Assembly (NCBI GenBank): GCA_021234155.1
Contig: JAJEKV010000008.1
Span: 9,204,445-9,268,444, forward strand
DNA from: Isoetes taiwanensis
Taxonomy: Eukaryota; Streptophyta; Lycopodiopsida; Isoetales; Isoetaceae
Direction: 5' to 3'
DNA length: 64,000 nt
Positions 1 to 50,924 of the stretch are shown piece by piece; positions within the stretch are counted from its first letter, which is position 1, and each line of letters opens with the position of its first letter. The position numbers were made by a program, and so were the translations under genes. The notes under the pieces are model-generated. The model saw only the letters and a program-made list of their open reading frames with translations, made no database searches and was not told the origin of the DNA.

Positions 1-1319
1 AAAGTTCCCTCGTGTGCAAATCGCAATGGAGATTCAGGATTGAATGCATGTACACAATGGATCCGTCTAGTGTCCAAAATCCTTTCGCACCCCCCATGCT
101 TTCTTTCTATCTATATCCTCCACCTTGACTTCCCAAAAGAACCTTTTTATATTCTTCCTCTTACTGGTTTCAGATGTGTTCATCCACTCGGATGTTCCAC
201 AAGTAAACATCTCTTCGGCAACTTCTACCACTTCGTGAGCATTACCCAGTTTTATGCTGCTGTATTTTAATTGCAGTTGTCTTAACCATCTCTTCAACTC
301 AGCAGCTTTGCTATCGTGTTCACTTTTCCCGTGGTTAGAACAAAAAAAATTCCACATCATATAGACATCAGTGTCGTTTGTGTACCTAGCCACAAAGTAA
401 AATGGTCTAGAAGCCTTGAATTGAGATGCTGCACCATCTGAAAACACATAATGTCTCTTTGGCACCCTTTCTTTCTGCTCCAGATATTTGTGGTGCTTCA
501 TGAAGCAGTGTTGCACGAACAAAGTATCGTGTTCCCTATCATCTGATACATAGTAATGTGTTTCCTTGATAATCTCATCTGCCACTGAGTCGTACTGATA
601 TGTTATTTGAACCAAAATGGTAATCTGGTTATTGACCCAGCGCATTGACTGCACCTCCTCTTGTTCCTTGAATGTATAGTTCTCTGCAAAATCCACTACC
701 GAGAGACATGCATCTGCTGGGAGATTCTCTAGAAGCTCCTTAAACTGTTTTGCCTGCCATTGGTACCTGAAATTATGCAGTGGAAAGATTTTTAGACGCT
801 CTTTTAGTTTATCCAGAAGCTCCTTGGGTTCTGTCTCATTGTACTGATGAGTAAGTCTCCTACCGAACTTCGAGGCGTTGTCTTTTCATAGTCAATGTAC
901 TCCCATTTCACTTTCCCTCTTGCCACTTCCTTCCGTGTCCTAAACTTCTTGATTCCACACAACTCACAATTTCCAAGGATGCACGCCTTCTTGTGAAACT
1001 CATCTAATTCACTCTTTGGACACAATATAGATCTCCACAAGCTTCCTGTACTTGCAATTTTATGCTGGTGTGCCCTGCATTGACCAAGTTCATGTGATCT
1101 ACAAACATCGCAGGTGCAAGTGCAATTCTTCGGATGTTTGGTTCTCATTCCATTGAGTCCATCCACTAGCATTTGCATCCTCACGTGCTGAATGCAACAA
1201 CAACTATTGAAGTCCTTCAATTTCACAACAAACCAGGGTTTTAGCTTCTCAAAAGCTCGAAGACGAATCTTAATTTCTGGATGTTGGTCCAGAAACCTCT
1301 TGAACAATAGCATCTGCAT
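1..1319 (-). pseudogene. DDE-like transposase gene, left copy, broken and running off the window edge
   Basis: Two open stretches (1319-804 and 696-67) in different frames read as one protein. The upstream part holds a cysteine-rich segment (C-T-C-T-C-D-V-C around 1090-1110, more CxxC pairs to 940). The downstream part has DFAENYTF, then SDGAASQFK, then NHGKSEHDSKAAE, whose acidic residues are spaced like a DDE/RNase H-fold transposase. Coding similarity continues across 804-696 in a third phase, so there is a one-base shift near 885 (an A4 run), and another near 55 where the frame reaches a stop while similarity-like sequence continues to base 1. A splice acceptor (CAG at 1316-1314) sits exactly where the related gene at 58.6-60.9 kb begins its fifth exon, so this is a spliced gene. 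The family resembles uncharacterised DFAENY/SDG/HGK proteins common in animal and other genomes; the DDE assignment is inference. The upstream exons are separated by the gypsy insertion and were not found. Confidence 0.7.
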
Positions 1320-1367: not shown

Positions 1368-2993
1368 TGTGACGCTCCCTGAACATATACGACCCTCGGC
1401 CGTATACATACGGGGACTTTCCCCTCCCATGGCAACCAACTTGCCATAAGCAGGGCCCTCCGTCTAACTCGGGCCGTCTATAATAAGACGCTCAAGTGAA
1501 GGACACAGAGGGGTCATTCGGCCCACGCCTTCAATGGGCGCCTACGTCGCGGAAGCGTGAATACAAGGGTTAGCACACAGCATAAATCATATATAATTAA
1601 CCACCACGAAGGGTGGCACATCCATCCAAATACCAACGGCAAAGAATATGCGTCTAAACCTAAGAAAACACCCCAAACCCAAGGTTCTACCCCTGTCCGA
1701 CTCACGTGAGGGTAAACCGGCGGCTTGGCCTCAAGAGATCAGCAGACAGAGGTATAACCTGGCGTTGGCTGGCATAGAACATCGGCTAGGGTGGTCCACT
1801 CCATCCGCCCCTCCTGTGCACACTTTGCAGATGGGTCAATTCACGCTATGGCTTCGCTATAGCCTTCCGGAGACGCAGGCTCGAGGCATCACCCTGCTGA
1901 GCCTACTCCAGGGTTCATGAAGCCCCCGGGCCCCGATGAGGCAGGTCGGGGAAGCGTCCCCTTCGTAATCACAGGTGGTTCCATGGGTGAGCTAGAGAAT
2001 ACGTGCGCATCAGCGACCCCGCATCCGTGCAGAATTTACTCACCCTAAATCTACTCAAAGTGCAAGGTGCCCCATACGGGTCACACCTCTACACCAGTGT
2101 CGGACCCATACCCGCCCCTCTCGTGGACCGGCTATCGCCTAGCTCACTTTGTAGGAGTCTCGGGAGCCTTTTATGTTCGTGCAAGACCCCACCCCCACTT
2201 TACCACTGTGTTCCTTGTCTGGTGCTAAGCCAGTACCATAGCATCTATGACCCGGTGGGCTCTTGTGCACAGGCCGCAATTAATGGGATAATATAGGGCT
2301 CTATCTAGGAGCATACTACAATAAATGGCTCAGAGGTCTCTACCCCCCTTAATTCCCCCATTTCCAGAGTAATACTAAGCCAAGAACCATCAATCCATCC
2401 TTTACGAGCAAAACCAGAATCAGAATATAAAGAGAACTTACCTTTGCAATCAAGGGTTAGTTCCTACGAGTAAAACACAGAGAGAACAGACCAACAACCC
2501 AAACAGGTGCCCAACAGGGGCGCTATCCTAAAATTCACAACTACTCTAGCCACCCACCTGTGTTTCTGCTGGACCCATTGTCATTGGGGATTTCCATCTT
2601 CTTGGTCTTGGTGTTCAGCTCGTGTCAGAAGGGTGGCGTCCAACTGCTCAAGGTGGCGCTCAGCTCCGGTCACAAGGGTGGCGCTCCACTGTTCAAGGTG
2701 AGTTGTGGCTGATATGGGGGTGGTGATCCACCCTATGGATCCCAATTAGCATTACCATGTTAGCCAATCGGGGGTGGCCACGTGGCGCCTTCCCAAACCA
2801 TAATTAACTTAATTATGGCTTTTTAAATATTAGTTCCTTAGTTATAGGTTATTATCCTTAATAATTAAATTAGCATAGCTAATTTAATCCCTTTTAAGTC
2901 AACCCCCTAGGTTCCCATACCCCATGATGGAATATACTCGGTGATGTGTCAAAGTATTTATACTTATACCGTATAAATACTTGGAACGTCACA
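1368..2993 (-). repeat. 3' LTR of the gypsy element (1626 bp)
   Basis: Aligns along its whole length with 12926-14614, with the same TGTGACG and CGTCACA ends. The segment 2160-2990 is almost identical to its partner, with only a few substitutions. The segment 1540-2160 differs by many one- to few-base indels and substitutions. It has one copy of the 54-bp terminal unit that is doubled in the other LTR. Confidence 0.95.
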
Positions 2994-3006
2994 TTCTCCC
3001 CACCTT
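2994..3006 (-). promoter_or_regulatory. Polypurine tract for plus-strand priming
   Basis: On the minus strand, AAGGTGGGGAGAA directly abuts the TGTGACG start of the 3' LTR, the expected place for the polypurine primer. The following 570 bases (3007-3577) lie between the LTR and the end of pol and hold no supported gene. Confidence 0.85.
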
Positions 3007-3577
3007 AGAATTAATGCTGTCCTCAGCATTGGGGTTAGATACAAATATAATAAATGACACTTTGAAGGAAGGAATTCCTTATTTCAGAAGGTAATATATT
3101 AAAACTTCAAAGTTTAGAACAATCTAAGCACCCAAGTGCAGTTCACATGATTATCATAAGCAACAAGTTCAACGACCAAAGTCCAATATCAAATAGCAGC
3201 GTAACAATAAGGAATTATATGTAAACACCATGAAAACGGAGAAAGTCGGGTCATCAGCAACCCCCTATACATGGCAGGTCACGTACTGCTCACTGGCCTG
3301 CACATGTCAATATATCAGTTTCCATAGATAAAATAATTAGGTTGTGGTTGAAGGGTCCACCCCCTAGAAGAAAATTTATCTACAAGGAACCTATCATGCC
3401 TATGGTTCGCAATTCATTGCGGCGTAAGGAATGGTCATGTTCCTATTATAGCCAAGATGAATGCGGCTATGAACTACATGCTTTAGTTCGTGGTCGTGTC
3501 CACATTGACAGTACACCACGTCCTAAGGAACACGAAGGTGATCCCATCATCGGTAACTGTTGTTAACTACGATGCAT

Positions 3578-5977
3578 CTACCCCTCTACTGATTCTCGGC
3601 GAATCAAGTCTTCAAGCTTACCGCCGGGAGCGGGGTTGATAGCATCGTTGATGGTGCGGCCTTGAGATTCGCGCATGAAATCCGGATAGTGCTTCTCAAG
3701 ATCTGTTTGCATCACCCACGTAGCATCCTCCACTGGCAAGTGTTTCCACTTGACCAAGTATTGCAACATTTGAGTCCTCCTGGTCTGTTTATAAGCTCGA
3801 TCAAGAAGAGCTTCAGGCACTATTTCTAGCTGCTCCTCTGTCATTTCCAGGAGGGTTGGGGTTTCCAAAACCTCCTCTGGATCAGGGGTGTGCTGCTTTA
3901 GAAGACTCACATGAAAAACCTTGTGGATCTTTAAGCGGGGTGGCAAGTCCAGGCGATATGCTTGCTCCCCAATACGTTCAGTGATTTTGAACGGTCCAGC
4001 CCATCTGGGTGCCAATTTCTTGCAGTTACCAATCTTAAGCTTGGCTTGTTTTACCTTAATCTTAAGCCAAACCGGTTCACCCACCTGGAAGACTCGTGGG
4101 GTCCTGTGCTTATCTGTTACACTCTTTTGACGACTGCGTGCAGCTAGCAAGTACTCACGTACTTCCTCGACCAAAGCTTGCATCTCCAGGAGGAGTTGTT
4201 GAGAAACCTCCACTTTCGACACGGGGTTGTGCCATGTGTCAGGAGTAAGGCATTGATAACCATAATTTATCATGAAAGGAGACATTCTGGAAGACTCCTG
4301 CTTCATACTGTTATAGGCAAACTCTACCAGATAAATATAGTCAGCCCATTGGGATTGCTTACTCCACACATAACTTCGTAGCATATCCTCTATAATACGA
4401 TTGGTACGCTCTGTCTGACCATCTATCTGAGGATGATATGCGGTACTCATAGCAAGCTTGGTCTGGATGGTGGTGAAGAAATCTTTCCAGAATGCACTTA
4501 CAAATTTGGGATCTCTGTCAGATACAATGACCCGTGGCATTCCGTGCAACCTGAAGATCTCCTTTGCGAAAAGCAAGGCGGTGTCGGTGGTACGACATGG
4601 CAAGAAGTGAGCCATTTTTGACAATTTGTCGACGACCACCATCAGTGCATCATAGCCACGGAGAGTTCGTGGCAGTCCCACAATGAAATCCATGGTTATT
4701 ACTTCCCACTTTGCGTGGGGCACATCCAAAGGCTGTAGCTCTCCTGGAAGTCTTAGTTGCTCCGCCTTGGTTTGCTGACACACTTGACACTGCTTAATAT
4801 ATCTAGCAATATCCTTCTTCATCGAAGGCCAAAAGTAGCTAGAACGGATTTTAAAATAGGTTTTCATAAATCCTGCATGTCCAGCTATAGGGCTGTTATG
4901 TGTGTCATGGAGGATTAACTTACGCACTCCGGAAGTCTGAGGTACACACAACTTATCCTTGTGATATAACAGATTGCCCTCTTTCTTATATGAACGGAAA
5001 GCTTCACGTTCTTTATCTGTGCGTGCCTCCTTACTCAAACTAGCCCATATTTCACAGAACTCGGGATCCGTAGCCAAGGTCTGTTCTATCTGTTTCCCAA
5101 ACTCACTTGTGAGTGTAGAAATTGCATTACAATGGGTTCGGGTTACCGAGGGGTGGCGTGACAATGCATCCGCAACCACATTGTGCTTTCCAGGCTTATA
5201 CATGATCTCAAAATCATATTCTTCAAGAAATTCCATCCATCTCCTCTGACGGAGGTTGAGGTTCGGTTGGGTGGATAAATAACGGAGACTTTGGTGATCC
5301 GTGTCCAACTGGAATCTTCTACCAAGGAGGTAGTGTCTCCATATTCGCAAGGCGCGAACAACAGCTAACAACTCCTGATCATGGGTAGGATATCGCTGTT
5401 CTGTCTCGTTCATCTTCTTTGAATCATAGGCAATAACCCTCCCTTCTTGCATGAGGACTCCACCAGTGGCAATTTGACTGGCATCTGTGGCCACTAGCTT
5501 ATCCTTGTCAGGATCGGGCAACGTGAGAACGGGTGCTGACGTTAAGGCATCTTTAAGCTGCTGGAAACTTCCCTGAACCTTAGTCTTCCAGTGCTCCATC
5601 CAATCCTTCACCTTCGCATGCTTCGTAAGATTTGTAAGAGGTGCTGCAATCCTTGCAAAATCCTTTACAAACTTTCGATAGTATCCTGCTAATCCCAAGA
5701 AACTTCGGACCTCGGAGACATTTTCTGGAATAGGCCATTCCCTTACGGCCTCTATTTTTGCTGGATCTGTAGCAATTCCCTCTGCAGAAATGATATGGCC
5801 CAAATAGTCAACCTTTGGAGTGGCAAACTTGCACTTAGAGAACTTGGCAAAAAGCTGATGACGTCTTAACTTTTGTAGGGCCAATTTAAGATGTTTCTCA
5901 TGCTCTTCTAGAGTCTTACTGTAGATGAGAATGTCACAAAATGACAACAAAATCATCCAAGTATTGTCGGAAAACAT
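3578..5977 (-). CDS. pol: Gypsy pol, C-terminal part: RT thumb, RNase H, integrase, chromo-like domain
   Basis: This 799-codon frame covers the second half of the polyprotein. It opens just before the reverse transcriptase catalytic motif. It continues through the RNase H segment (VATDASQ near residue 167, TDHQSL near 232, ending [10 protein letters not shown]) and the integrase zinc finger (H-H-C-C, ending CQVCQQTK). The integrase core follows, with [16 protein letters not shown] and DGQTERTNR carrying the D, D and E. A GPF module (RWAGPFKI) precedes a chromo-like end (EYLVKWK-type motif, here [16 protein letters not shown]), which is typical of plant chromoviruses. The catalytic F-x-D-D motif reads SFCDILIYS: one of the two Asp codons is missing (about 5932-5943), so polymerase activity should be lost. 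The apparent start is not the real start; the frame continues from 6055-6813 across a damaged stretch. Confidence 0.93.
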
Positions 5978-6054
5978 CGTTCATTAACCGCATAAATGTT
6001 GCGGGGGGCATTAGTTAATCCGAAGGCATAACGGTAAACTCATAATGCCCATAT
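5978..6054 (-). pseudogene. Damaged RT fingers/palm segment of gypsy pol
   Basis: Between the two pol frames, RT-like coding continues in pieces ([11 protein letters not shown], then GLTNAP in another frame), separated by at least two frame changes. Together with the missing Asp just downstream, this concentrates damage on the polymerase active site. Confidence 0.8.
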
Positions 6055-6813
6055 CTAGTCTGCGGCAGATTTATGGATGTCCTCCTCTTTAATCCTTATC
6101 GATGATATCCCCCGGCGAAGGTCAATCTTTGAAAAATAATTGGCCCCTTGCAACTGATCCATTAGATCATCTGCTCTCGGCAAAGCATAGCGATTTTTGA
6201 TGGTATGCTTGTTGAGTTGCCGATAATCAATACACATTCTCAAGGAGCCGTCCTTTTTCTTTACAAAAAGAATAGGGGCGCCAAAGGGCGAAACGCTAGG
6301 TCGAATAAAACCTAGGTTTAGTAGCTCTTGAAGTTGCTTCTTAAGCTCTGCCAACTCTGGGGGACTCATACGGTACGGGGCCTTGCTGGTAGGCTTAGTG
6401 CCTGGCTCTAAAGCTATCTCACATTCTACCCCTCTAAAAGGAGGAAGCTTCTGGATCTCGTCTGGGAAAAGATCGCTAAATTCATGGAGAATACTGGCAA
6501 TCCCCCGTGGCAAGGTGTTGATTACTTGGTTTTGCTTAGCATCTGACTCAATGGAAGCAAGTCTAATAACGCAGAGGAGCTTTTGCTTGCGTATAGCTTT
6601 ATCTAACTGTCGAATGGACATAGACTGCATGATAGGGTTGAATGGTTCACCTTTTATAGTTACGCGGGCTCCATTAGCTGCGTTGAAGGTAACTTCTCTC
6701 TTCTCGCAGTCTATGTTGGCTTTTGCAGATGCCAAGAATTCCATTCCAACAATGAGGTCGTATTTGCCAATATCCATTAACTTCGGCACCCATAGCAACC
6801 GGTGCGCTGGCAA
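6055..6813 (-). CDS. pol: Gypsy pol, protease C-terminus to N-terminal half of RT
   Basis: This 252-codon frame begins within the aspartic protease domain ([10 protein letters not shown], the ILG/VGM-type C-terminal motif), runs through the linker and enters reverse transcriptase. RT motifs are [52 protein letters not shown] and FSKIDLRRG. The last contains the first catalytic Asp, usually in F-S-K-I-D-L-R-S-G-Y, here with RGIS in place of SGYH. The frame ends at a TAG within the region that normally reads [12 protein letters not shown]. It is continuous in content with the protease remnant upstream and the pol frame downstream, so it is one segment of a fractured polyprotein. Confidence 0.9.
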
Positions 6814-7260
6814 ACCGCATGTTAAGGTTGATCACGGCGACCATGAGTATGTCTAACCTTACCATTTGGCTAAAGTGACAGGCCTCGATTAAATGACCTT
6901 AGGGTTTCCAGTTGTAGGACCTGGGCCATTCTAGGAGAAGCAAAATTATGTGTACTCCCCGTATCCATAAGAATTACAAAAGGCTTACTGTCTACTTGGC
7001 CTATGGTGGAAATGACAGCAGGCTGACTTTCAGCATTGCCAGTTTCTATAGCTGCAAGGATATGAGACGCACCGTGAATGTACTCGGGGCGTCCTCGTCG
7101 GCGAGTAATGTTGACTCAATATCGTCCCAAAATTCGAGGTCGGCCATGGCGGTAGGGCGATCTGGGGTAACATATGGACAATTCTGCATGAAGTGTCCAG
7201 GCCTCATACACCTGTAACATGCCTTATCTCGGTACCGGTGTTCTCGCGGCTTCTTTAGGA
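6814..7260 (-). pseudogene. Gag zinc knuckle and aspartic protease, frame-shifted
   Basis: The minus strand near 7166-7222 encodes CYRCMRPGHFMQNCPY, a C-x2-C-x4-H-x4-C nucleocapsid zinc knuckle. About 200 bases further, near 6935-6970, is the protease active-site motif MDTGSTHNFAS, followed by NFxSPRMAQ-like sequence and a stop near 6880. The pieces are in different frames, so they are remnants of the gag-protease junction. They lie in the expected order between gag (7356-7874) and the RT frame. Confidence 0.8.
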
Positions 7261-7355
7261 ATGGATCAGAAGAGGTTTGAACTTCCTTACCAGCATTGTT
7301 ACGCTTTATCTGGCGTGCTAAAAGCGACTTTCTTCTCCCCGGGCGGCCGTAAGAG

Positions 7356-7874
7356 TTACTGGCGAGGGGCCCCGGACTTGGAGAGGGGGTTTGTAAGGTG
7401 TGGGCGGCCGTAGGCTGCGAGTAAGGAGCGGGGCGGATCTTGATTCCTTGGTATGTCCTCCTCGAGGCTCAATGCTTTAGCCTCGGCTTCTGCAACTGAT
7501 TTCGGGTCGATGGCCTTAACCATCCGTTTGATCGATGGTGCCAAACCCTCAATATAGCCTTCCACTGCCCTTTTCTCATTCATACCGGTACATACGGTCT
7601 CCGGTAGCATAAACTCATCCGTATAAGCCTCAGCGGACATACTCTTCGCTCCAACTTTGTAGAAAGTGCGGATCTGTTGGCATTTATGTGCACGGGGCAC
7701 ATAATGCGATTTGAAGGCCTTGGCAAACTTTCTGAAGTTGCATCTACTCCTGTCCAGATGTTTGGCTCTGGCATAGCCCTTCCACCAAATACGGGCAGCT
7801 CCGGTAAGGTTTGTGGTGGCAACCTTGCCTGTATCCTTCTCTGTCATGCCATAGGACCTGCCGAACTCCTTCAT
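7356..7874 (-). CDS. gag: Gypsy gag (retrotransposon capsid domain)
   Basis: The 172-codon frame contains the retrotransposon gag core: ARIWWKGY near residue 28, FAKAFKSHYVPR near 50, the Q-x-RTFY pattern and YTDEFMLPETV near 85, then EGYIEGLAPSIKRMV. This is the standard Ty3/gypsy capsid layout. The true N-terminus is upstream: similar low-complexity gag sequence continues to about 8275 in other frames, including a Pro- and Ser-rich stretch at 8231-7989. At least one shift is therefore present near 7875-7990. The zinc knuckle lies downstream in a separate frame. Confidence 0.85.
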   Translation of the reverse strand: MKEFGRSYGMTEKDTGKVATTNLTGAARIWWKGYARAKHLDRSRCNFRKFAKAFKSHYVPRAHKCQQIRTFYKVGAKSMSAEAYTDEFMLPETVCTGMNEKRAVEGYIEGLAPSIKRMVKAIDPKSVAEAEAKALSLEEDIPRNQDPPRSLLAAYGRPHLTNPLSKSGAPRQ

Positions 7875-7988
7875 TTAGATCCGGCCGGGATTAGGCATTC
7901 AAGCGCCTCTAGATTTCCCATCAAAGCGGGCCAATTTCCTATTCTTCCATATACTAGTTATGGTCATCAAGCTGTCTTGCGGTACTCC

Positions 7989-8231
7989 TTATCTCGGGCT
8001 TTGCATGGCCACCGATGATCTGGATGATTCGGATGACACCGAAGTGGCGGACTTTGAGGAGGTGGCACTGTCTCTAGAGGAGCTCCGTCGGCATTTAGAC
8101 GGGGGTCTCTTTCGCGCAGGTACCGGGCTAGTTTGTGGTGGGGACGGCTGCTGTGTAGGCGGACTAGGCGGCAACGGAGGTAACTCCGGTCCGTCTTCTT
8201 GTACATGCTGTGGTGGGTTAGCATGCAACAC
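7989..8231 (-). pseudogene. Proline-rich N-terminal gag segment, out of frame
   Basis: An 80-codon open stretch rich in Pro, Ser and Arg (PPLPPSPPTQQPSPPQTSP near its start) lies just upstream of the gag core. Disordered Pro-rich N-termini are common in gypsy gag. Assignment rests on position and composition only. Confidence 0.4.
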
Positions 8232-8606
8232 ATAGGCCCATAAATTCGCCTAGCTTGTCTTTTCATTAGCATCAATTCTTGTTCGGTTAACCGAACAATG
8301 CGTTTGAGGGTGTCCCGCCAGGCGGCATTGCGTCTGCAACTCTATATTAAACATCGATGATGATATAAGAAAGAGTACGATAACAGTAAGTGTTATAACA
8401 AAGTCATTTAGGGTAGTATCGAGAAACACAAAGTGAACACGAAAAAGGACGGAAGATTCAAATTACAAGCGAAATAACGATTACATTAAAGAAGTTCATA
8501 CTGAACACAGTTATAAACTTATAGTTATATAATACATAAAGGGGCCTGATACAGGCCATTTCCTTATTTCATACTGAACATAGGAACACAAAGTGGAGGA
8601 TTCGGC

Positions 8607-8994
8607 TTAGGGGTTTGCAAAGGGATACATGACGGAATAGCGCACACTCTCACGCACAGCTCGGACGAGCTTGTAGCGTGTCCAAGCCTGGATGATAACG
8701 GGTTGATAATCCCAAGTGGGGCTAATGATGAGAAGGTTGAAAAGCCTCCGTAGCGCGTAGAAGATTTGCCAGAGGTGATCATTGGCATCCTCGAAGGCTT
8801 CATGTCTGGTCATATTCCAGTAGTCCCATGTGCGGCAGAGGGTCCATTTCAAATCATCAAAAGCCCGTTCTCGGAGGAGGGTAACTATCGCCATCCCCTT
8901 GTCCGGATCATATGGTTCTTCTGGCTCTGCAGATTTCTCATCTCGTCTCCACTTTCTCGCTCCGGATACTCGCCGTACCTTTGCCCGTAATCCT
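8607..8994 (-). CDS. Unknown gypsy-borne ORF (extra ORF 4)
   Basis: The 95-codon frame from 8894 is open a further 100 bases upstream (to about 8994), where it reads an acidic stretch EKSAEPEEPYDPDKG before the first Met. The rest is rich in aromatic residues (DDLKWTLCRTWDYWNMTRH, then FYALRRLFNLL). I recognise no domain. It lies on the coding strand of the gypsy element, between the acidic ORF at 9277-10077 and gag. It could be a separate accessory protein, an exon, or a remnant of a longer polyprotein N-terminus. Bases 8276-8606 contain nothing recognisable. Confidence 0.4.
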
Positions 8995-9276
8995 GCTCAG
9001 GAGGTCCTTATCTGTTCTGTGATCCTCTCTTCATACTCCTCCAATGTTTCTTCTGCAGAACGGCGCGATGAGCATATAGTACCAAAGAATTCCAAGAGAT
9101 ATAATGATGCATCATGGAAGAGATCCATTCAAAATTATATTGGCATTACATCTTGATTGATACAATAGACAGTAATCATAAAGGGTAACACATCACGAGT
9201 GATAACCATGGCTTAAGACATTGCCAAATGAAAATTTTACAGTGATTTCAGAATGCAAAATACATAATACAATCAT

Positions 9277-10077
9277 CTAGGAGCTAGGTCCCTCGTCTTC
9301 GTCCATTGGCTGAGGAGGTGGACGATAACGCATCAAAGTGGCGCTAGGGCTAGCAGAAAGGGCGGCTCGAGCTGCTGCCTCAGGTGGTAAGCAAGTAGCC
9401 AAAGGCGCTGCCACAAGGAGGCGCATGTTAGCGCAGCCCGCCACGTCCCCCAATGCTGCTATAGCCAAATCTCTACGGACCAAAGTAATGGTGGTGATGT
9501 GATAGTCAATCTTCTTATGGCCCGCTGAAGTAGATATGGCTCGGAGCGCCCACCAAGAAGCTTCAGAAGAAGTCCCTAGGTTCTTAGAGAAAAATAGCAC
9601 CTCTCCTTGGCGGAAGGCTGAGAGAAAGAATCGGGCCACATGGTTGCCCATTGCCCTAACCTGAGGGTCGGTGGAGGTTTCCGCTTCCTTTTCCAAATTG
9701 ATGGGGAGTTTCTCCTCTTCTTCCTCTTCCCTGTCATCCTCAAGGCTGACCTTGGTGTCCCAAAGGTCTTCCTCGTCCTGATCCACTTCTCCCATGGTGA
9801 TTCGCAGAGGCGGTTCCGAGAGAGATGGCCATGTCGGGGCCGCAAACTGCACTTCTGGAGGCTGGGGTGTGTCAGTTAGTAAGAACTGGCGAAGTGACAA
9901 AAGAGTCTCAATGGGCTCTTGCTCTTCGGGCCGATATGCCAAGAGGCTCTCTACTTGGGCAGGTTGCACAACCGGTGTGGTGAAATCGATGAAGTCATCT
10001 TGGCAATACTCCATAAGATCATAGAGAATTTCTATTTTCTTCTGGCGAATCCCCGATAAAGAACGCGGTAGGCCCAC
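9277..10077 (-). CDS. Unknown acidic gypsy-borne ORF (extra ORF 3)
   Basis: A 266-codon frame, one of the longest between primer site and gag. The N-terminal third includes KKIEILYDLMEYCQDDF. The middle is highly acidic (QDEEDLWDT, then DDREEEEEEKLP). The C-terminal half is Ala-rich and hydrophobic, ending in a Pro- and acid-rich tail (RPPPQPMDEDEGPSS). There is no signal peptide, transmembrane segment or known motif. It has the same strand and general position as the ORFs around it, so it probably belongs to the element's accessory block, not to an inserted host gene; no internal target duplication or LTR was seen. Confidence 0.5.
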   Translation of the reverse strand: MGLPRSLSGIRQKKIEILYDLMEYCQDDFIDFTTPVVQPAQVESLLAYRPEEQEPIETLLSLRQFLLTDTPQPPEVQFAAPTWPSLSEPPLRITMGEVDQDEEDLWDTKVSLEDDREEEEEEKLPINLEKEAETSTDPQVRAMGNHVARFFLSAFRQGEVLFFSKNLGTSSEASWWALRAISTSAGHKKIDYHITTITLVRRDLAIAALGDVAGCANMRLLVAAPLATCLPPEAAARAALSASPSATLMRYRPPPQPMDEDEGPSS

Positions 10078-10233
10078 ATGATATCCTCAAGATCGGTACT
10101 CTTGGTCATTCAAAGTACCTGCAGAAGAAGGTTTAACCCTTCGAGCTTAAGGGCTTTTTGTCTTTGGCGGGGGGCTTCGCCGCAGTTCTTTCCATCTTCA
10201 CGAAATCCTCGCTCATTGACTTACTTCGTCATC

Positions 10234-10587
10234 TTAAAGGTCGGGAGGTAGAGGCGTGAAGAATGCTCGTGAAATCTCCTCATCCTCTATGTAATGATCC
10301 ATAATGACGGCCAGTCTGCGAATCGGCCTCAAAACAGGGTTTCCCGATCTATCGTAGCAATAGGGAGGTCGGTCCCTCGCCGTCGATGCCTTTGATGACG
10401 TTGCGGGCATGCTCATCACCCCTAACATCCGTGCGGGTGTGAAAATCAAGATAGAGCTGCCCATCGTCTTCATTGCAAACGCATGCGGTACAATCTCCTC
10501 ATAATAGAACCCGAAGGAAAGCGGATAATCTGGATGGGCCCGCATGTTGGAGATAAGGTCTACCTGCTTTGAAGCGTAGGGTGAAGA
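10234..10587 (-). CDS. Unknown gypsy-borne ORF (extra ORF 2)
   Basis: The 103-codon frame (Met at 10545) is open upstream to a stop near 10588 and includes FGFYYEEIVPHAFAMKTMG, then ILIFTPARMLGVMSMPATSS and a charged C-terminus with DHYIEDEEISRAFF. No family is recognised. It lies between the H3-fusion frame and the acidic ORF, on the element's coding strand. A Pro/Arg-rich frame overlaps at 10499-10702 and could be its continuation after a shift. Bases 10588-10901 hold AT-rich sequence with no supported gene. Confidence 0.4.
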   Translation of the reverse strand, partial: SSPYASKQVDLISNMRAHPDYPLSFGFYYEEIVPHAFAMKTMGSSILIFTPARMLGVMSMPATSSKASTARDRPPYCYDRSGNPVLRPIRRLAVIMDHYIEDEEISRAFFTPLPPDL

Positions 10588-10901
10588 AGATCAAAGGGAA
10601 CCGCAGGGGTCCCAATGCTCTCCGCCTAAGTACCACCTTCTTTGCGGGGTTGGGCGAGCCATGAAGAGTGAAGGCAAAAGGAGGAGAAAGGAGGCCAAGC
10701 AAGAAGGGAAAATGAAACCCTAATGGCCAAAAAGGGGTTTTATACTTTTTGGCACGTTTCCCAAAATTATTATTAAAATTTTTATTTACTTAATAATATA
10801 TTTCCAAAAAAAATGTTTTTATATTCACAACCCCAAAAAAATGGGACTAGTACATGGATAAGTTACAAAAAATTTTTCAACAGAAAAAGACGGTCGTGTC
10901 A

Positions 10902-11885
10902 TCACCTAAATTCCCCTCGGATCCTTCGTGCGAGCTGAAGGTCCTTGGGCATAATAGTGACCCTCTTCGCGTGTATGGCGCAAAGGTTAGCGTCGCTCAA
11001 AAGTTCAATAAGATAGGCCTCGGCAGCTTCCTGTAAGGCAAGGATCGCGAAAGCTTGAAACCTTAGGTCGGTCTTGAAGTCCTGAGCAATCTCCCGTACA
11101 AGGCGCTGGAAGGGAAGCCGGCGGATCAATGGCTCGGTAGTCTTCTGATACTTACGTATCTCCCGAAGTGCTACCGTGCCCGGTCGAAACCTGTGGGGTT
11201 TCCGCGGCTTAAGGGTCGCCTTAAGCGACGGAATGGTTTTGCCGCCTGTGTTAGGATGCTTTGTCCGCTCAACGATGTGTTCCCGTCTCTGAGCCGATGT
11301 CTTCTTGGCGATGGTTGCATCCTGCTGCAGTCGGGTCTTATAGTGCACCCCACTCTTAATAGGCCGGGACTTCGTTCTCTTTAGTCTCCGATTACCTTGC
11401 CCGCTCGGCTGCTGTGGGTCTGCCGATCGGTTAACGTCGACAGGGTTTTCCTGAGGATTAACATTCTGGGCAACACCTAGGTCCTGCTGGTCAACCTGCT
11501 GGTGATCTTGCTGGCCCCCCTCTTGATTCCCGCTCTGCTGGCCATGAAGGTCCTCCCCTTCCTCTTGGAGCCGCTCTCTCTCTTCATCCCTGGCCTCTTT
11601 GTCCGGGGCACGCATTTGTATCTTGTAGAGCAATCTCGGTGTGGTACTGTCGGCCCGTGCTTTCGCATGTCCTCTGCCGCGATTCCGGTGGCCTTGACTA
11701 AACCTTGGCGGGACATTCTCAAAGATGAAGCTGTTAAGGTCTTCATTCCAAGAGAAGGTAGGAAGATTAAAGTATTCTCGGTACGTAAGTATACGACCTT
11801 TCCCCAAGTAATAAAAACGTTCCATTCTTATGTCTGGTGGAGCAGCGGCTATCCGTGCAAGTCTTCCACTCTCCAAGATGCATGA
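10902..11885 (-). CDS. Retrotransposon ORF with a C-terminal histone H3 domain
   Basis: A frame of about 324 codons. Its first part is novel ([20 protein letters not shown], then [20 protein letters not shown]). A Gln/Asn/Glu-rich linker follows (residues about 95-165, many Q-Q and D-Q), then a basic stretch. The last 121 residues (11267-10905) are histone H3. A shortened tail keeps RTK at the start and TGGK, then comes the near-canonical core: [74 protein letters not shown]. By eye about 14 of roughly 98 core residues differ from plant H3. H3 Lys4-, Lys14-, Lys56- and Lys79-equivalent residues appear kept, while most of the Lys9-Lys36 tail is deleted. The core has Phe at position 41 and Leu at 90, and no lengthened loop 1, so it is H3-like and not CENH3-like. 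It overlaps the upstream frame by about 37 bases in the -1 phase; no slippery heptamer is evident. Confidence 0.93.
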
Positions 11886-12262
11886 TCCTCACGGGCTTCA
11901 TTCCGACTAAGCTCTGGGTCGTCATCTGGTCCTGGCGAGGGGTAAAACTTAACCACAGCCCATGCACGGTCCGGCTGCTCCACGAGAGTGTAGTCCTGAC
12001 CGGCTTCGTTCAACTTGAGGAGGAAGCGCTCGTTGAAGTGGAAGATAGGGTAGGGGACTCGTCGGCCCTCGACAAAGTGCTTGACAAAAAGGTTAAGAAT
12101 GGTATCTATCATAGGGTCTTCCTCAGCAAGATGCTCGACTAGGGCGGCAAATAACTGGAATACGCTCAACTTCTTCAAATCCACGGTTAGCTTGAAGCGC
12201 GGCATGGCTATACTAACAAAGAACAGCAAAGAAGGAAGGAGGAAGGTGAGGCGCTCAAGCAA
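11849..12262 (-). CDS. First ORF of the gypsy element, probable N-terminal part of the H3-fusion protein
   Basis: A 137-codon frame. The likely start is the internal Met at about 12205 ([16 protein letters not shown]), because the preceding residues are hydrophobic and lie in the leader. It encodes [35 protein letters not shown] and [14 protein letters not shown], then an acidic end. No family is recognised. The frame stops at 11849, inside the open start of the H3-fusion frame, in the phase one base behind. I infer one protein split by a frameshift, either a mutation or, less likely, programmed. If joined it would be about 440 residues, starting some 700 bases after the primer site. Confidence 0.55.
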
Positions 12263-12912
12263 GGCGGGTCGGCGCTAAGAAGTAAGTAAGGGCACCGAGG
12301 TGTAGGGCAGACGCAAAGGAGGCGTGGAGGTCAGCTATGGCAAGTTTGGAGGTTAAGTCCGGCGGCTATGGCGGAAAAGGGTGCTCAGAGAAAGCACACG
12401 CCCAAAAATATAGTTCAAAATTCAAATTTCAACTTTTAACTTTTTATAAAAATTTTCAAAAAAAAAAATATTAATTTTTTTTATAAAAATTTTAAGCAAA
12501 GGCGATATAAAAATATCTGCGACCAGTATGGGGCCGCCAATTTGCTTATCTGCAGTTTTATTTTTGAAAAGAAACACCTCTGAGTAAGGCAGCGCCCCTT
12601 TCCATTTTTCGGCGGCCTGTTGTCCTTTTAACCTCGGGAGATGTGCCCCCTAGGGTATTTGAGAGGTGCCCGATCCATTGGAGCCATTTTCGCCTTCATC
12701 CGAGCTACCTACAAAAAGTTATAGCTCTTCGAAACTTGGGTCTTCCAGTCGGCCCAGACTTGTTAAGGAATTACAGTCTATTACATTAACCTAGCACTAA
12801 ATCAAACATCAAAGACTTAAACAATCACTCTTGCTTACTCTCTCTCTCCTAACTACCGAACTAGCGAGTTAGGGTTTAGTCAGTGCTATGATTTCGAGTA
12901 TCCGAAATCACG
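12263..12912 (-). other. 5' leader of the gypsy element
   Basis: About 650 bases between the primer site and the first frame, with A/T homopolymer stretches around 12420-12500. No gene is supported. The next feature is the primer binding site. Confidence 0.6.
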
Positions 12913-12924
12913 GCTCTGATACCA
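12913..12924 (-). promoter_or_regulatory. Primer binding site (initiator Met tRNA type)
   Basis: On the minus strand TGGTATCAGAGC lies one base inside the 5' LTR. It is the standard plant retrotransposon primer site complementary to the 3' end of initiator methionine tRNA, and identical in 12 bases to the site in the copia element at 21134-21145. Confidence 0.93.
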
Positions 12925-12925
12925 C

Positions 12926-14614
12926 TGTGACGCTCCATGAACATATACGACCCTCGGCCGTATACATACGGGGACTTTCCCCTCCCATGGCAACCAACTT
13001 GCCATAAGCAGGGCCCTCCGTCTAACTCGGGCCGTCTATAATAAGACGCTCAAGTGAAGGACACAGAGGGGTCATTCGGCCCACGCCTTCAATGAAGCCT
13101 CACGTCGCGAAGCGTGAATACAAGGGTTAGCACACAGCATAAATCATATATAATTAACCACCACGAAGGGTGGCATATCCATCCAAATACCAACGGCAAA
13201 GAATATGCGTCTAAACCTAAGAAAACACCCCAAACCCAAGGTTCTACCCCGGTTCCGACTCCTGTGAGGGTAAACTGGCGGCTTGGCCTCAAGAGATCGG
13301 CGAGAGACAGGTATAACTTTGGCGTTGGCTGGCATAGAACATCGGCTAGGGTGGTCCACTCCATCCGCCCCTCACATTGCACTTTGCGGATGGGTCAATT
13401 CACGCTATGGCTTCGCTATAGCCTTCCCGGAGACAGGGGCTCGAGGCATCACCACTGCGAGCCTACTCCGGGGTTCATGAAGCCCGGTCCGATGAGGCAG
13501 GTCAGGGAAGCGTCCCCTTCCAGAATCACAGTGGTTCCATGGGTGAGCTAGAGAATACGTGCCGCATCAGCGACCCCCGCATCCGTACCCGACTTACTCA
13601 CCCTAAATCTACTCAAAGTGCAAGGTGCCCCATACGGGTCACACCTCTACACCCAGGGAGTGTCAGACCCATACCCGGCCCTCTACGTGACCGGCTATCA
13701 GGCCTAGCTCACTGTAGGAGTCTCAGGAGCCTTTTATGTTCGTGCAAGACCCCACCCCCACTTTACCACTGTGTTCCTTGTCTGGTGCTAAGCCAGTACC
13801 ATAGCATCTATGACCCGGTGGGCTCTTGTGCACAGGCCGCAATTAATGGGATAATATAGGGCTCTATCTAGGAGCATACTACAATAAATGGCTCAGAGGT
13901 CTCTACCCCCCTTAATTCCCCCATTTCCAGAGTAATACTAAGCCAAGAACCATCAATCCATCCTTTACGAGCAAAACCAGAATCAGAATATAAAGAGAAC
14001 TTACCTTTGCAATCAAGGGTTAGTTCCTACGAGTAAAACGCAGAGAGAACAGACCAACAACCCAAACAGGTGCCCAACAGGGGCGCTATCCTAAAATTCA
14101 CAACTACTCTAGCCACCCACCTGTGTTTCTGCTGGACCCGTTGTCATTGGGGATTTCCATCTTCTTGGTCTTGGTGTTCAGCTCGTGTCAGAAGGGTGGC
14201 GTCCAACTGCTCAAGGTGGCGCTCAGCTCCGGTCACAAGGGTGGCGCTCCACTGTTCAAGGTGAGTTGTGGCTGATATGGGGGTGGTGATCCACCCTATG
14301 GATCCCAATTAGCATTACCATGTTAGCCAATCGAGGGTGGCCACGTGGCGCCTTCCCAAACCATAATTAACTTAATTATGGCTTTTTAAATATTAGTTCC
14401 TTAGTTATAGGTTATTATCCTTAATAATTAAATTAGCATAGCTAATTTAATCCCTTTTAAGTCAACCCCCTAGGTTCCCATACCCCATGATGGCGTATCT
14501 ATACTCGGTGATGTGTCAAAGTATTTATACTTATACTGTATAAATACTTGGAATATACTCGGTGATGTGTCAAAGTATTTATACTTATACCGTATAAATA
14601 CTTGGAACGTCACA
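12926..14614 (-). repeat. 5' LTR of the gypsy element (1689 bp)
   Basis: Partner of 1368-2993. It is 63 bp longer, mostly through a doubled 54-bp unit at its outer end (about 14501-14607). It carries the promoter for the minus-strand transcript; a TATAAATA sequence lies within the terminal palindrome. Confidence 0.95.
14501..14607 (-). repeat. Duplicated 54-bp LTR unit with perfect 12-bp palindrome arms
   Basis: Two copies of a unit beginning TACTCGGTGATGTGTC. Each contains AAGTATTTATAC, a 7-base spacer, then GTATAAATACTT, an exact inverted repeat (the first copy has CT where the second has CC in the spacer). The other LTR has one copy. Confidence 0.85.
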
Positions 14615-14619
14615 CATGC
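14615..14619. repeat. Target-site duplication CATGC (right)
   Basis: Exact partner of 1363-1367. The sequence beyond it is the CA-rich start of a simple-repeat region. Confidence 0.9.
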
Positions 14620-14689
14620 ACCATACCATGCCCCACACTCATCATATTCACCAGAACGAGCACCTTAGTGCTGTGTACATTACCACACA

Positions 14690-15210
14690 CCACACCACAC
14701 CCCACCACACACCACACCATTCACCACACACCATACACCAAATGGTGGAGTGTGGAGTGGTGGTGGAGTGTGGTGGTGGTGGTGGGGGTGGTGGTGGTGG
14801 AGTGTGGTGGTGGGGGTGGTGGAGTGGGGTGTGGTGTGGTGGTGGGGGGGTGGTGGTGGGGGCGTGGTGGTGGTGGTGGTGGTGTGTGTAGTGGTGTGTG
14901 GTGGTATGATGTGGTGTGGTGGTGTGTGGTGTGGTGTGGTGTGGTGTGGGGGGGTGTAGTGGTGGTGGTGTGGTGTGGTGTTGTGGATTGTGGTGTGATG
15001 TGGTGTGGTGGAGTGTGGTGGTGGAGGGGTGTGGTGTGGTACATGGTTGAGTGTGTTGGTGGTGAAGTGTGGTGGTGGTGGTGGAGGGGTGTGGCGTGGG
15101 ATGTGGTGGGATGTGGTGGGATGTGTGTGCATGTGGTGGTAATGTGGTGGTCGCAAAGATGTGGTGGTAGTCTATGGTGGTGGGATAGATGATGGGGTGT
15201 GGTGGGGTGA
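14690..15210. repeat. CA-rich then GT/G-rich simple-repeat tract
   Basis: From 14690 to about 14740 the plus strand is ACCACACC-type. From about 14745 to 15210 it is TGGTGG/GTGTGG-type with runs of 4-7 G. The switch creates inverted CA/GT arms around the AAATGG centre and many G-runs able to form G-quadruplexes. Apparent long ORFs here are Trp/Val/Gly or Pro/Thr/His low complexity and are not genes. Confidence 0.9.
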
Positions 15211-21157: not shown

Positions 21158-22243
21158 TTGTCTCGTACAATGACTAGCAGATTTGGAGCTACTCTTTTGA
21201 GCACTATAGAAGTCTACAATGGTGGACCAGGATTTCAAGTGTGGAAAGATGCTATAAAGCACATCTTGGAAGTAGAGGACATCTGGGATCTAGTTGATCC
21301 AGATGGTGGTACAAATGTGAACATAAACACATTGTCAAGGTCAGTATCTGAAGGATCTGTTAACATGAGAATTAATGATGGTACATGTCAGGCAAAAGCT
21401 GAAGGCAGCAATCTAGGAGGAGGAAGATCATTGTACTCAAAGGTCAAAGAAGCCCAGGGGATAATCTCTTGTAAGGTCAGTCCTACTATACGGCTTAAAC
21501 TAAGAAATTTAAGTCCAAGGCAGATGTGGTCTTTTTTGCTGAAACATTTTGAAGAAAAGAGATCATCACAAATTAATTTGCTCGAAAATGAATTAAGGGG
21601 ACTAAAAGTAAAAGAGGATGGAGATGTAGCAGAATTTTTTAACAAATTTGATAACATTATTGCTGACCCATCTGGGGCTGGTATGAATGTGTCAGAACGA
21701 AGTCAAGTATTACAGATCTCTAGGGCTATTAGTGAAAACGAAAATCTTGCCCTATTTATTAGAAATATGAGTACGACAAGGGAAGAAGCTGAAAACATTC
21801 TTAGAACAGAATTTGAACAAAAGAAAATAATGAGAGAAGGAGATGAGCCCCCTGAAATTTTGTTTACTGGAAAAAGAGACAAAATCACATGCTATAACTG
21901 CCATCAGATTGGACACTTTAAAAATGAGTGCCCTGAGCTTCAAAAGGAGTTTAACTGCTACACTTGTGGAGGAAAAGGGCATGTGGCAGCAAAATACCCC
22001 ACTCCAAAAGATTATGGACGTGGCAAAAATCAAGGGTTTGCAATCAGAGGGGGAAGAGTAAACTCAAGCAGGGGACGAGACAGAAAACCAGTCGGAGCTT
22101 ATGTTGCTAAGGAAAAGGAGGAGAAAGATACATCTGGGAATGAAGATGATGATGAGGTAATGCATGCTTTTGCTCTTATTGACAAAAATATGGATGCTAA
22201 CAAATGTGATCCTCTAGTAGTTGATAGTGGAGCTGAAAGATGA
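21158..22243 (+). CDS. gag: Copia gag and start of protease, ending at an in-frame TGA
   Basis: 361 codons. The capsid region (residues about 10-240) begins MTSRFGATLLSTIEVYNGG and includes FQVWKDAIKHILEVEDIW and FLLKHFEEKRSSQINLLENE, a UBN2/copia-type gag. Two zinc knuckles follow: CYNCHQIGHFKNEC is intact (C-x2-C-x4-H-x4-C), whereas the second, CYTCGGKGHVAAKY, has Tyr for the last Cys. After an acidic linker the protease motif VVDSGAE appears and the frame stops at TGA 22241-22243. The same frame stays open beyond the stop to 23893, so this is a single nonsense codon or a leaky stop, not a normal gene end. Met at 21170 is also possible; the first Met lies 13 bases after the primer site. Confidence 0.9.
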   Translation: MSRTMTSRFGATLLSTIEVYNGGPGFQVWKDAIKHILEVEDIWDLVDPDGGTNVNINTLSRSVSEGSVNMRINDGTCQAKAEGSNLGGGRSLYSKVKEAQGIISCKVSPTIRLKLRNLSPRQMWSFLLKHFEEKRSSQINLLENELRGLKVKEDGDVAEFFNKFDNIIADPSGAGMNVSERSQVLQISRAISENENLALFIRNMSTTREEAENILRTEFEQKKIMREGDEPPEILFTGKRDKITCYNCHQIGHFKNECPELQKEFNCYTCGGKGHVAAKYPTPKDYGRGKNQGFAIRGGRVNSSRGRDRKPVGAYVAKEKEEKDTSGNEDDDEVMHAFALIDKNMDANKCDPLVVDSGAER

Positions 22244-23893
22244 GTAGTCCAATCTACTGGTCTGCTCAAGAACTTAGCAACCACAAGTTCTAGAAGAATT
22301 CAAGTGGGAAATGGAAATCTTCAAGAAATCAAAGGAAAGGGGTTGCTGCAATTAGTAGATCTTGATGGAAATATTGTTGACATTGAGAATGTTCTATGTG
22401 TTCCTACAATCATAAAAAATCTGATTTCAGTCAGCCAGTTGGTAGATTTGGGTTATAGAGTTACCTTTGACTCAAAAGCTTGTTACATTTATCTTGGAAA
22501 TGAATTGAAGTTTCTTGCAATACGTTGTGGAAATTTGTTCCAAATGAATGACTCAATTTGCAATAGCTTGAATCTTTTAAATTCAGCTGAATTTGAGCTC
22601 TGGCATAACAGGTTGGCACATACACACTCTAACAATGTAAAATACCTTGCAAAGAAGGGATGGATCAAGTGCAATGATGTAAAGGCTGATAAATTCATGT
22701 GTGAAGGATGCATTCTAGGAAAATTAAATAGATTACCATTCAAGCAGTCAAAAACAAGATCTAATGAAATTCTGGAACTAGTGCACACTGATTTGTGTGG
22801 TCCCTTGAATGTAAGGGGGAGAACAAATAAAAGGTATTTTATCTTCATTGATGATCATAGCAGAAAAACCAAATGCTACTGTCTGGAAAGAAAATCCCAA
22901 GCATTGGCAGCATTCAAACAATATGTTACAGAAATGGAAAGAGAAACTGGGAAAAAGCTAAGGTGTATCCGATCTGATCGAGGAGGAGAGTACCTGTCTA
23001 CCAAATTTAAGCTTTTTTGTATTACTAATGGCATCAAAAGGCTTTTTTGTATTACTAATGGCTTTTTTGTATTACTAAGCTTTTTGTTGAGGTACAACCC
23101 TCAACAAAACGGAGCAGCAGAAAGAAAGAACAGGACCATTATGGATGCAGTAAGATCAATGATCAAACACAGTGGGCTGCCAAACTACTTATGGGAGGAG
23201 GCCTTGAAAACTGCAATTCTTGTACAAAACAAACTTCCATCATCAAGCTTAAGAGGTAATGTACCAGATCTGATATGGTCAAAGGGAAATAAACAGATAA
23301 ATTATAACATGTTTAAGACATATGGATGTCTGGTATATGCTCATGTTCCAAATGAATTGAGAAAGAAACTTGACAATAAAGTTGAGATAGGTTTTCTTGT
23401 TGGATATGATGAGGAAACAAAGGGGTATAGAATCTATATCCCAGAAAGCAAGAAAGTAATAATCAGTAGAGATGTTTTATTTCATGAAGACACTCTGTAC
23501 AAGGACAGATTTGGAAAAGGTAAAAAGGAAAAAGCTAGTACAGTGGACAAAGTTAAGCCAAATGTAGATATTGACTCTGACCATGAAGCAGATGATGAAT
23601 TAAACAGCAATAACCATAGCGCTGTGGCAGCAAATGATGAATCAGATGTGGAAAGTAATGGTATGCAATATAAAATACAGGAAGTGCCTATCAAAAGAAA
23701 GACACAAGCAGAGAAACTGCTGGAAGAAGCTGGAATACAAACTGAAATGTACGGCATAAATATATTTGGTAAAAGCAGACGTATTGAAAAACAAAATATG
23801 AAACCAGATCAAATCATGGCAATTCTAGAGGATGTGATGATTCCCAAATCCTTTGAGGAGGCAATGGAAAGTAATGATAAGGAAAGATGGTGA
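22244..23893 (+). CDS. pol: Copia protease remainder and integrase
   Basis: In frame with gag, with no stop from 22244. The integrase zinc finger has H-x-x-x-H and C-x2-C (HNRLAHTHSNNV, CEGCILGK). The core has HTDLCGP, IRSDRGGEY and NGAAERKNRT, carrying D, D and E. Between the second D and the E a 22-base unit (GCTTTTTTGTATTACTAATG) is present almost three times (about 23020-23085), inserting Phe-rich residues that should disturb the core fold. The frame ends at TGA 23891-23893 in the sequence NDKERW, where RT-like coding resumes one base out of phase. Confidence 0.9.
   Translation, partial: VVQSTGLLKNLATTSSRRIQVGNGNLQEIKGKGLLQLVDLDGNIVDIENVLCVPTIIKNLISVSQLVDLGYRVTFDSKACYIYLGNELKFLAIRCGNLFQMNDSICNSLNLLNSAEFELWHNRLAHTHSNNVKYLAKKGWIKCNDVKADKFMCEGCILGKLNRLPFKQSKTRSNEILELVHTDLCGPLNVRGRTNKRYFIFIDDHSRKTKCYCLERKSQALAAFKQYVTEMERETGKKLRCIRSDRGGEYLSTKFKLFCITNGIKRLFCITNGFFVLLSFLLRYNPQQNGAAERKNRTIMDAVRSMIKHSGLPNYLWEEALKTAILVQNKLPSSSLRGNVPDLIWSKGNKQINYNMFKTYGCLVYAHVPNELRKKLDNKVEIGFLVGYDEETKGYRIYIPESKKVIISRDVLFHEDTLYKDRFGKGKKEKASTVDKVKPNVDIDSDHEADDELNSNNHSAVAANDESDVESNGMQYKIQEVPIKRKTQAEKLLEEAGIQTEMYGINIFGKSRRIEKQNMKPDQIMAILEDVMIPKSFEEAMESNDKERW

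Positions 23894-39124: not shown

Positions 39125-50924
<11,800 letters not shown>

Follow-up and report, generated by a model that had tools for sequence, protein, structure and literature searches.

A predicted histone H3 fusion gene carried by a Ty3/gypsy chromovirus lineage of the lycophyte Isoetes taiwanensis

Results

Structure of the element

The window (the whole 64,000-nucleotide stretch of Isoetes taiwanensis DNA analysed) contains an LTR element on the minus strand at 1368-14614. It is flanked on both sides by CATGC as a target site duplication (TSD; left 1363-1367, right 14615-14619). LTR comparison placed the 3' LTR at 1368-2993 (-) and the 5' LTR at 12926-14614 (-). The primer binding site (PBS; TGGTATCAGAGC) lies at 12913-12924 (-), one base inside the 5' LTR, and a polypurine tract (PPT; AAGGTGGGGAGAA) at 2994-3006 (-) adjoins the 3' LTR. 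The outer end of the 5' LTR carries a 54-bp tandem duplication (14495-14614) that is single copy in the 3' LTR according to the repeat listing, and a GGT/GTG low-complexity tract (14602-15192) directly adjoins this LTR. The LTR pair differs by 63 substitutions over 1619 aligned sites (K2P 0.040). At plant substitution rates of 6.5e-9 to 1.3e-8, this gives a very rough insertion age of about 1.5-3 million years for this copy.

Downstream of the PBS, and on the same strand, three ORFs precede gag. ORF1 is present in two parts: 11852-12205 (-) runs from the start codon to a frameshift, belongs to a novel N-terminal domain (N-domain) and matches the start of open ORF1 copies elsewhere; 10902-11876 (-) is a 324-codon frame encoding the rest of the N-domain, a Gln-rich linker, a basic stretch and histone H3. 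ORF2 (9277-10590 (-)) is broken here and encodes about 450-500 aa where open in other copies, whilst ORF3 (8607-8996 (-)) encodes about 170 aa in other copies; neither matches a known family in Pfam or PDB sequences. By eye, a TATA-like AGTATAAA followed by a 5'UTR-like stretch lies ahead of ORF2 (10730-10790 (-); also in copy L031), as if ORF2 had its own promoter.

These are followed by a gag fragment (7356-7874 (-); Pfam Ty3_capsid/Retrotrans_gag), a gag CCHC motif in the frame at 7049-7468, a protease and RT fragment (6055-6813 (-); Pfam) and a stretch encoding RT, RNase H, integrase and chromodomain (3578-5977 (-); Pfam RT_RNaseH 6.4e-33, Integrase_H2C2 2.5e-20, Chromo 7.6e-09). The pol order is thus PR, RT, RH and INT with an integrase chromodomain (PF08284, PF00078, PF17917, PF17921 and PF00385). 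Judged by these pol domains and by its LTR features (two LTRs, TSD, PBS and PPT), the element is a Ty3/gypsy chromovirus. By eye, its chromodomain does not have the group I aromatic cage residues, as that group is defined in the accessible text of PMC3350952. The window copy is broken, with ORF1 frameshifted within the N-domain and ORF2, gag and pol split over several frames.

Other repeats were seen by eye in the window. A Ty1/copia-like element whose gag, integrase and RT frames are long and open lies at 21158-25413 (+), and several LINE-like reverse transcriptase ORFs at 39472-50696 (+), one of 1034 aa at 47592-50696. Two ORFs, at 804-1319 (-) and 60238-60690 (+), have an SLWRSI-CPK motif in common and form a repeat family.

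ORF1 encodes a predicted fusion ending in histone H3

The initial annotation, made from the window alone, placed histone H3 at the end of the 324-codon frame, between primer site and gag and within LTRs bearing a perfect target duplication. This was borne out on both counts. LTRs, CATGC, PBS and chromodomain-bearing pol are all present on one strand, and residues 217-322 of the frame match solved H3 chains (best E 7.9e-51, PDB) and Pfam PF00125 (Histone; 1.9e-42), far beyond chance. The H3 moiety itself (10902-11267 (-)), delimited by these matches and by the alignment of copies, comprises a degenerate tail and a complete core fold. The 324-codon frame does exist but is only the 3' part of ORF1 in a frameshifted copy. 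In open copies the full gene encodes about 440 aa, mostly starting MPRFKLT, and consists of a novel domain of about 220 aa, the Gln-rich linker, the basic stretch (about residues 279-321) and H3.

Relatives of each part were then sought. A search with the whole ORF returned 7920 proteins, and all 120 listed carry Pfam histone annotation. The N-domain gave nothing significant in PDB (best E 0.12) or Pfam (best E 0.029, in one of 15 copies). In 5.8 billion proteins, its window piece had no match at E <= 0.001 among 316 candidates, and the alignment of 15 copies none at E <= 10 among 7997 candidates. As no outside homologue was found, the N-domain is known from one species only.

ORF2 had been suspected by eye, from its C-terminus, of being a degenerate H2A; Pfam, PDB and profile searches do not support this. 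Two copies gave no Pfam match at E up to 10 and a profile of seven copies nothing at E up to 10, and one copy searched against PDB sequences matched only two annexin chains (E about 0.7). ORF3 gave only single non-significant matches (E 0.91 and E 1.5, and Pfam E 0.057 in one of three copies). No relatives were found in the 2/8 of the viral contig set scanned. Structure predictions were too poor for use, with a mean pLDDT of 40.2 for the AlphaFold model of ORF1 and 33.7 for ORF2.

The fusion is present in many copies at a fixed position

The whole genome assembly (1,658,258,908 bases, 1110 contigs) was searched with the fusion ORF. At least 139 matches were found at at least 123 places, 16 rows being second pieces, with main-piece identity down to 60%. 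Of the 123 listed places, 115 reach residue 300 or beyond, into the H3 core; of the other eight, seven stop within H3 and one (query 6-211) stops short of it. An internal stop is absent from 68 of the 123 and present in 55. Frames of single copies may hold assembly errors; the assembly was made from Nanopore and Illumina reads (PMC8566536).

Canonical H3 was also used as a query, and the best 150 of 9022 candidates were considered. Fifteen places match all 136 residues at 96-98% identity without a break and represent the host H3 genes. The two host genes that were fetched (L053 and L054) encode an identical protein, with Y41, E77 and L90 together with S87, a combination of residues that in angiosperms are H3.1-like or H3.3-like. 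Below these 15 genes, the remaining 135 places match at 71-86%, nothing else lying above 86%; 12 are already among the fusion ORF matches listed and 123 are additional. Frames of at least 400 aa hold 51 of the 135 and frames below 200 aa hold 41. In all, at least 246 non-host places match the fusion ORF or H3, and the sequence before H3 was read in part of them.

The check for further H3-bearing copies suggested in the initial annotation was thus positive in the element's own genome. A one-off insertion of H3, which the annotation had entertained, is ruled out by the at least 123 fusion ORF places and the 135 non-host H3 places among the best 150 of 9022 candidates.

To place the fusion within the element, 9.9 kb was fetched around each of 20 copies, selected mainly for their open frames. 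Sufficiently complete copies (e.g. L024, L025, L026, L031 and L037) have the order PBS/LTR side, ORF1, ORF2, ORF3, gag-pol; in the rest frames are broken or interrupted. The PBS was found upstream of ORF1 with at most one mismatch in 17 of the 20 (15 exact). Its distance from the ORF1 start is 0.55-1.33 kb, mostly about 0.7 kb, and the LTR end CGTCACA adjoins it in 16 of these 17. It was not found with at most one mismatch in L022, L029 and L031. The recurrence of the same PBS strengthens the proposal that H3 is cargo of the element.

Three fetched copies (L030, L032 and L038) have no ORF2 or ORF3 between ORF1-H3 and gag, and retain ORF1-H3. The ORF1-gag junction of L030 differs slightly from that of L032 and L038. 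Conversely, among the best 143 ORF2 places scored, 60 are preceded within 6 kb by a listed ORF1 and the other 83 are not. For the 12 of these 83 with the best scores we inspected the kilobase upstream and found H3 in 11, several in broken frames. The upstream H3 of L042 is much decayed, and L044 has copia-like sequence in place of H3. Since H3 was present in 11 of 12, most of the 83 ORF2 places lacking ORF1 among the matches listed probably do have H3 upstream.

Two of the 123 additional H3 places were read, and these copies, L055 and L056, represent a second branch (branch B). They have the same N-domain-H3 architecture and are 42% identical to the main branch (branch A) over the whole ORF. 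In L055, the LTR end GCGTCACA and an exact PBS lie 761 bp upstream. Judged by these features, this is an old, high-copy Ty3/gypsy chromovirus lineage in which the first gene after the PBS is a fusion of N-domain, linker, basic stretch and complete H3 core.

The H3 core is complete and the tail is replaced

At the score of the histone family, the core runs complete from alphaN to alpha3. The initial annotation had counted about 14 core differences by eye; within K37-E133, the window copy differs from canonical H3 at 13 positions and from host H3 at 14. Across 34 branch-A copies, 77 of the 96 core positions (38-133) have the canonical H3 residue in at least 90% of copies. K56 and K79, two of the modification sites noted as kept, are present in 34 of 34. 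The K4- and K14-like residues are less secure because the tail stretch RTKHPxTGGK has two possible alignments, one at each end of the H3 tail. Since this stretch sits behind some 320 residues, there is no free N-terminal ARTK tail. No recognisable K9 or K27 motif was found in the tail, in line with the initial annotation: the replaced tail of branch A is a conserved 39-letter protein stretch behind the N-domain and linker.

Relative to the two fetched host H3 genes, all 34 branch-A copies carry K64R, S86A, S87F, G102E and E105S, and residues 86-105 hold four of these five fully fixed changes. T107A (33/34), L60P (32/34), F104L (31/34) and V101I (30/34) are near-fixed. Branch B has S87F, T107A and I124L in common with branch A, where I124L occurs in 28 of 34 copies. 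Its two copies have T at 86, A at 102 and G at 105, and retain K64 and L60. As both branches are changed at the same stretches, the common shift is at 86-87 and 102-107. A90L was dropped as an element-specific change because the two fetched host genes also carry L90.

Most fixed changes thus fall at 86, 87, 102, 105 and 107, in the L1-alpha2 region, and other core contacts are kept. We take the L1-alpha2 stretch to determine chaperone and deposition specificity, as for H3.1/H3.3 and CENP-A. R49, R63, R69, R72, R83 and T118, which we take to be DNA-contact residues, are kept in 31-34 of 34 copies. A weaker H3-H4 dimer is a possible consequence of L60P (32/34 copies) and of the substitutions at 102-107. 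In CENH3, loop 1 is longer and the stretch from alphaN to alpha2 has diverged; identity with CENH3 was rejected, the core K37-E133 aligning without insertion and being canonical around loop 1.

This pattern bears on two alternatives to a role in nucleosomes. As a decoy, the fusion would titrate H3 chaperones or H4, whether cytoplasmic or nuclear, and disturb host H3 deposition with no nucleosome entry. That the two branches are both changed at 86/87 and 102/105/107, within the region read by chaperones, would suit this, but the retained DNA contacts would be needless and we consider a decoy improbable. A nucleocapsid-like role, with the histone part binding element nucleic acid in the particle and compacting cDNA, is suggested by the basic stretch plus histone and by ORF1 being the first ORF after the PBS. 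However, H3 needs H4 to fold, gag has its own CCHC motif and core conservation is greater than charge alone requires. Packaging is therefore, to our minds, highly improbable.

The H3 core is under stronger constraint than gag or reverse transcriptase

Selection on ORF1 was assessed by NG86 with Jukes-Cantor correction on the 34 branch-A copies, including broken ones and not sampled at random. By this simple method, in which pairs are not independent and sites may be saturated, the H3 core gave dN 0.044, dS 0.687 and omega 0.065. Median omega was 0.057 for the 313 pairs with dS of 0.3-1, and omega was 0.044 in the 15 intact copies. The dN/dS check proposed in the initial annotation therefore gave values not near 1. 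Within the same ORF, omega was 0.154 for the H3 tail, 0.171 for the basic stretch, 0.368 for the linker (32 copies) and 0.137 for the N-domain. For the other genes, omega was 0.195, 0.301 and 0.200 in the first, middle and last part of ORF2 (30, 29 and 25 copies), and 0.092 in ORF3 (13 copies). Both gag (0.157, 14 copies) and PR-RT-RH (0.137, 13 copies) exceed the H3 core.

Synonymous divergence of the H3 core follows that of the rest of the element. Its dS correlates with that of gag (r 0.81, 86 pairs), RT (r 0.79, 76 pairs) and the C-part of ORF2 (r 0.67, 294 pairs), and more weakly with that of the N-domain of the same ORF (r 0.56, 420 pairs). The dN correlations of the H3 core lie between -0.07 and 0.12 (gag r 0.06, RT r 0.11). 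Compared with the two host H3 genes, branch A has a median pS of 0.889 and pN of 0.114; corresponding values are 0.787 and 0.105 between the branches, and 0.919 and 0.093 between branch B and host. The high pS and low pN in all three comparisons indicate that synonymous sites are saturated whilst the protein is held. Thus, on the evidence of these rates, H3 is inherited along with gag and pol and is kept by strong purifying selection.

Repeated recapture of host H3, or gene conversion from it, would give low dN and keep the domain H3-like with no selection at the level of the element. It is already contradicted by the five changes that every one of the 34 branch-A copies has and neither fetched host gene has, by pS saturated against host and by H3 dS following gag and RT; we find it scarcely credible. 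LTR elements are known to capture genes (PMC7264820), and the stops in 55 of the 123 listed copies would fit a captured host H3 that has no function for the element. Such a passenger fails family-wide given an omega of 0.065, saturated synonymous sites against the host, the same architecture in two branches and retention of H3 where ORF2 and ORF3 are lost. It holds only for single dead copies and is otherwise very improbable. Purifying selection is evidence of function, not of which function.

Discussion

On balance, we incline to an element-encoded H3 variant that enters nucleosomes, with anti-silencing or tethering as its possible benefit. A host H3 coding sequence would have been captured once, before the split of branches A and B; the 15 host H3 genes match without break. 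The ORF1 protein would pair with host H4 and be built into nucleosomes, a step we think probable from the retained core contacts.

Plant genomes silence retroelements via H3 tail marks. In plants this involves an H3K9me2/CMT loop (PMC9033089). Nucleosomes containing the ORF1 protein may break the loop between H3K9me2 and DNA methylation around the element or, alternatively, may offer the N-domain as a point where element complexes can anchor. Either is proposed because the tail has no recognisable K9 or K27 and carries a large domain, and these are the steps of which we are least sure. Anti-silencing as the main benefit is a tentative suggestion, somewhat short of probable.

A purely targeting role deserves separate consideration. 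Here H3 would serve only to grip nucleosomes or H4, so that the N-domain, and the integration complex with it, is delivered to chosen chromatin; the selected trait would be integration targeting rather than silencing. Chromodomains have been proposed to target chromovirus integration (PMC3350952), and another handle could help where, by eye, the group I aromatic cage is absent. Conservation of the N-domain (omega 0.137) also fits. A full H3 with its core contacts kept would, however, be an unusual tether, and there is no sign of ORF1 travelling with integrase. We regard this as unlikely, if still a serious contender.

The element-encoded nucleosomal variant can be extended further. The lineage might maintain a self-propagating histone variant, with its own H3, a replaced tail and an effector domain, such that chromatin over its copies could not be marked at K9 or K27 and would stay permissive. 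ORF2 and ORF3, conserved and with no known relatives, might be further parts of this chromatin module. We offer this extended version as possible rather than probable. If true, a tail-altered H3 under stronger constraint than RT would serve the element directly as a molecular weapon or passport in the silencing conflict. The element H3 would also show, as an experiment of nature, which H3 surfaces an outsider cannot afford to lose, and would offer hosts new H3 variants.

Comparison with known systems

We found no report of a histone domain in an LTR retrotransposon in the open-licence literature, a scope mostly exclusive of subscription papers and preprints. H3-linked retroelements in Phytophthora were likewise not found in the open-licence literature. 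The term 'histone' is absent from the main text of a review on additional ORFs in plant LTR elements (PMC7264820) and from the accessible text of the I. taiwanensis genome paper (PMC8566536) and of the I. sinensis paper.

Plant chromoviruses with group I and II chromodomains (PMC3350952) have the same gag-PR-RT-RH-INT order and C-terminal chromodomain. In the accessible text no H3 ORF is described for them, whereas the Isoetes element has three extra ORFs before gag. Ty3/gypsy elements of orchids carry an ORF for an m6A RNA demethylase (2-ODD), found in a survey of angiosperm genomes (PMC9289625). There, too, an acquired domain has been kept as an additional ORF in Ty3/gypsy elements that later diversified. 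The domain in that case is an RNA demethylase, however, and the hosts surveyed are angiosperms.

VANDAL elements are DNA transposons, and their VANC proteins are not known to contain a histone. VANC of Arabidopsis VANDAL transposons is a TE-encoded anti-silencing protein (PMC10398659). It counteracts host epigenetic silencing and is a functional analogue of the proposed ORF1 role only: VANC proteins are sequence-specific anti-silencing proteins and come from another type of TE than the Isoetes LTR element.

The closest precedent is in Dothideomycete fungi, where hAT DNA transposons captured histone H3 from a transcript or retrocopy (PMC6710886). In Pyrenophora tritici-repentis 23 of 26 hAT H3 copies are reported as still coding, whilst in P. 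fijiensis most are truncated, only 11 of 784 being nearly full length, and RIP has inactivated every copy except the original (PMC6710886). As in Isoetes, a TE has multiplied H3 coding sequence to tens or hundreds of copies. Where the fungal elements have a hAT transposase, TIRs and an 8-bp TSD, this one has LTRs, a 5-bp TSD and reverse transcriptase. The fungal case is thus a DNA transposon with no fusion to another domain described in the accessible text, whereas the Isoetes element is an LTR retroelement whose H3 is fused to a novel domain and, by the rates above, has been held under long-term selection.
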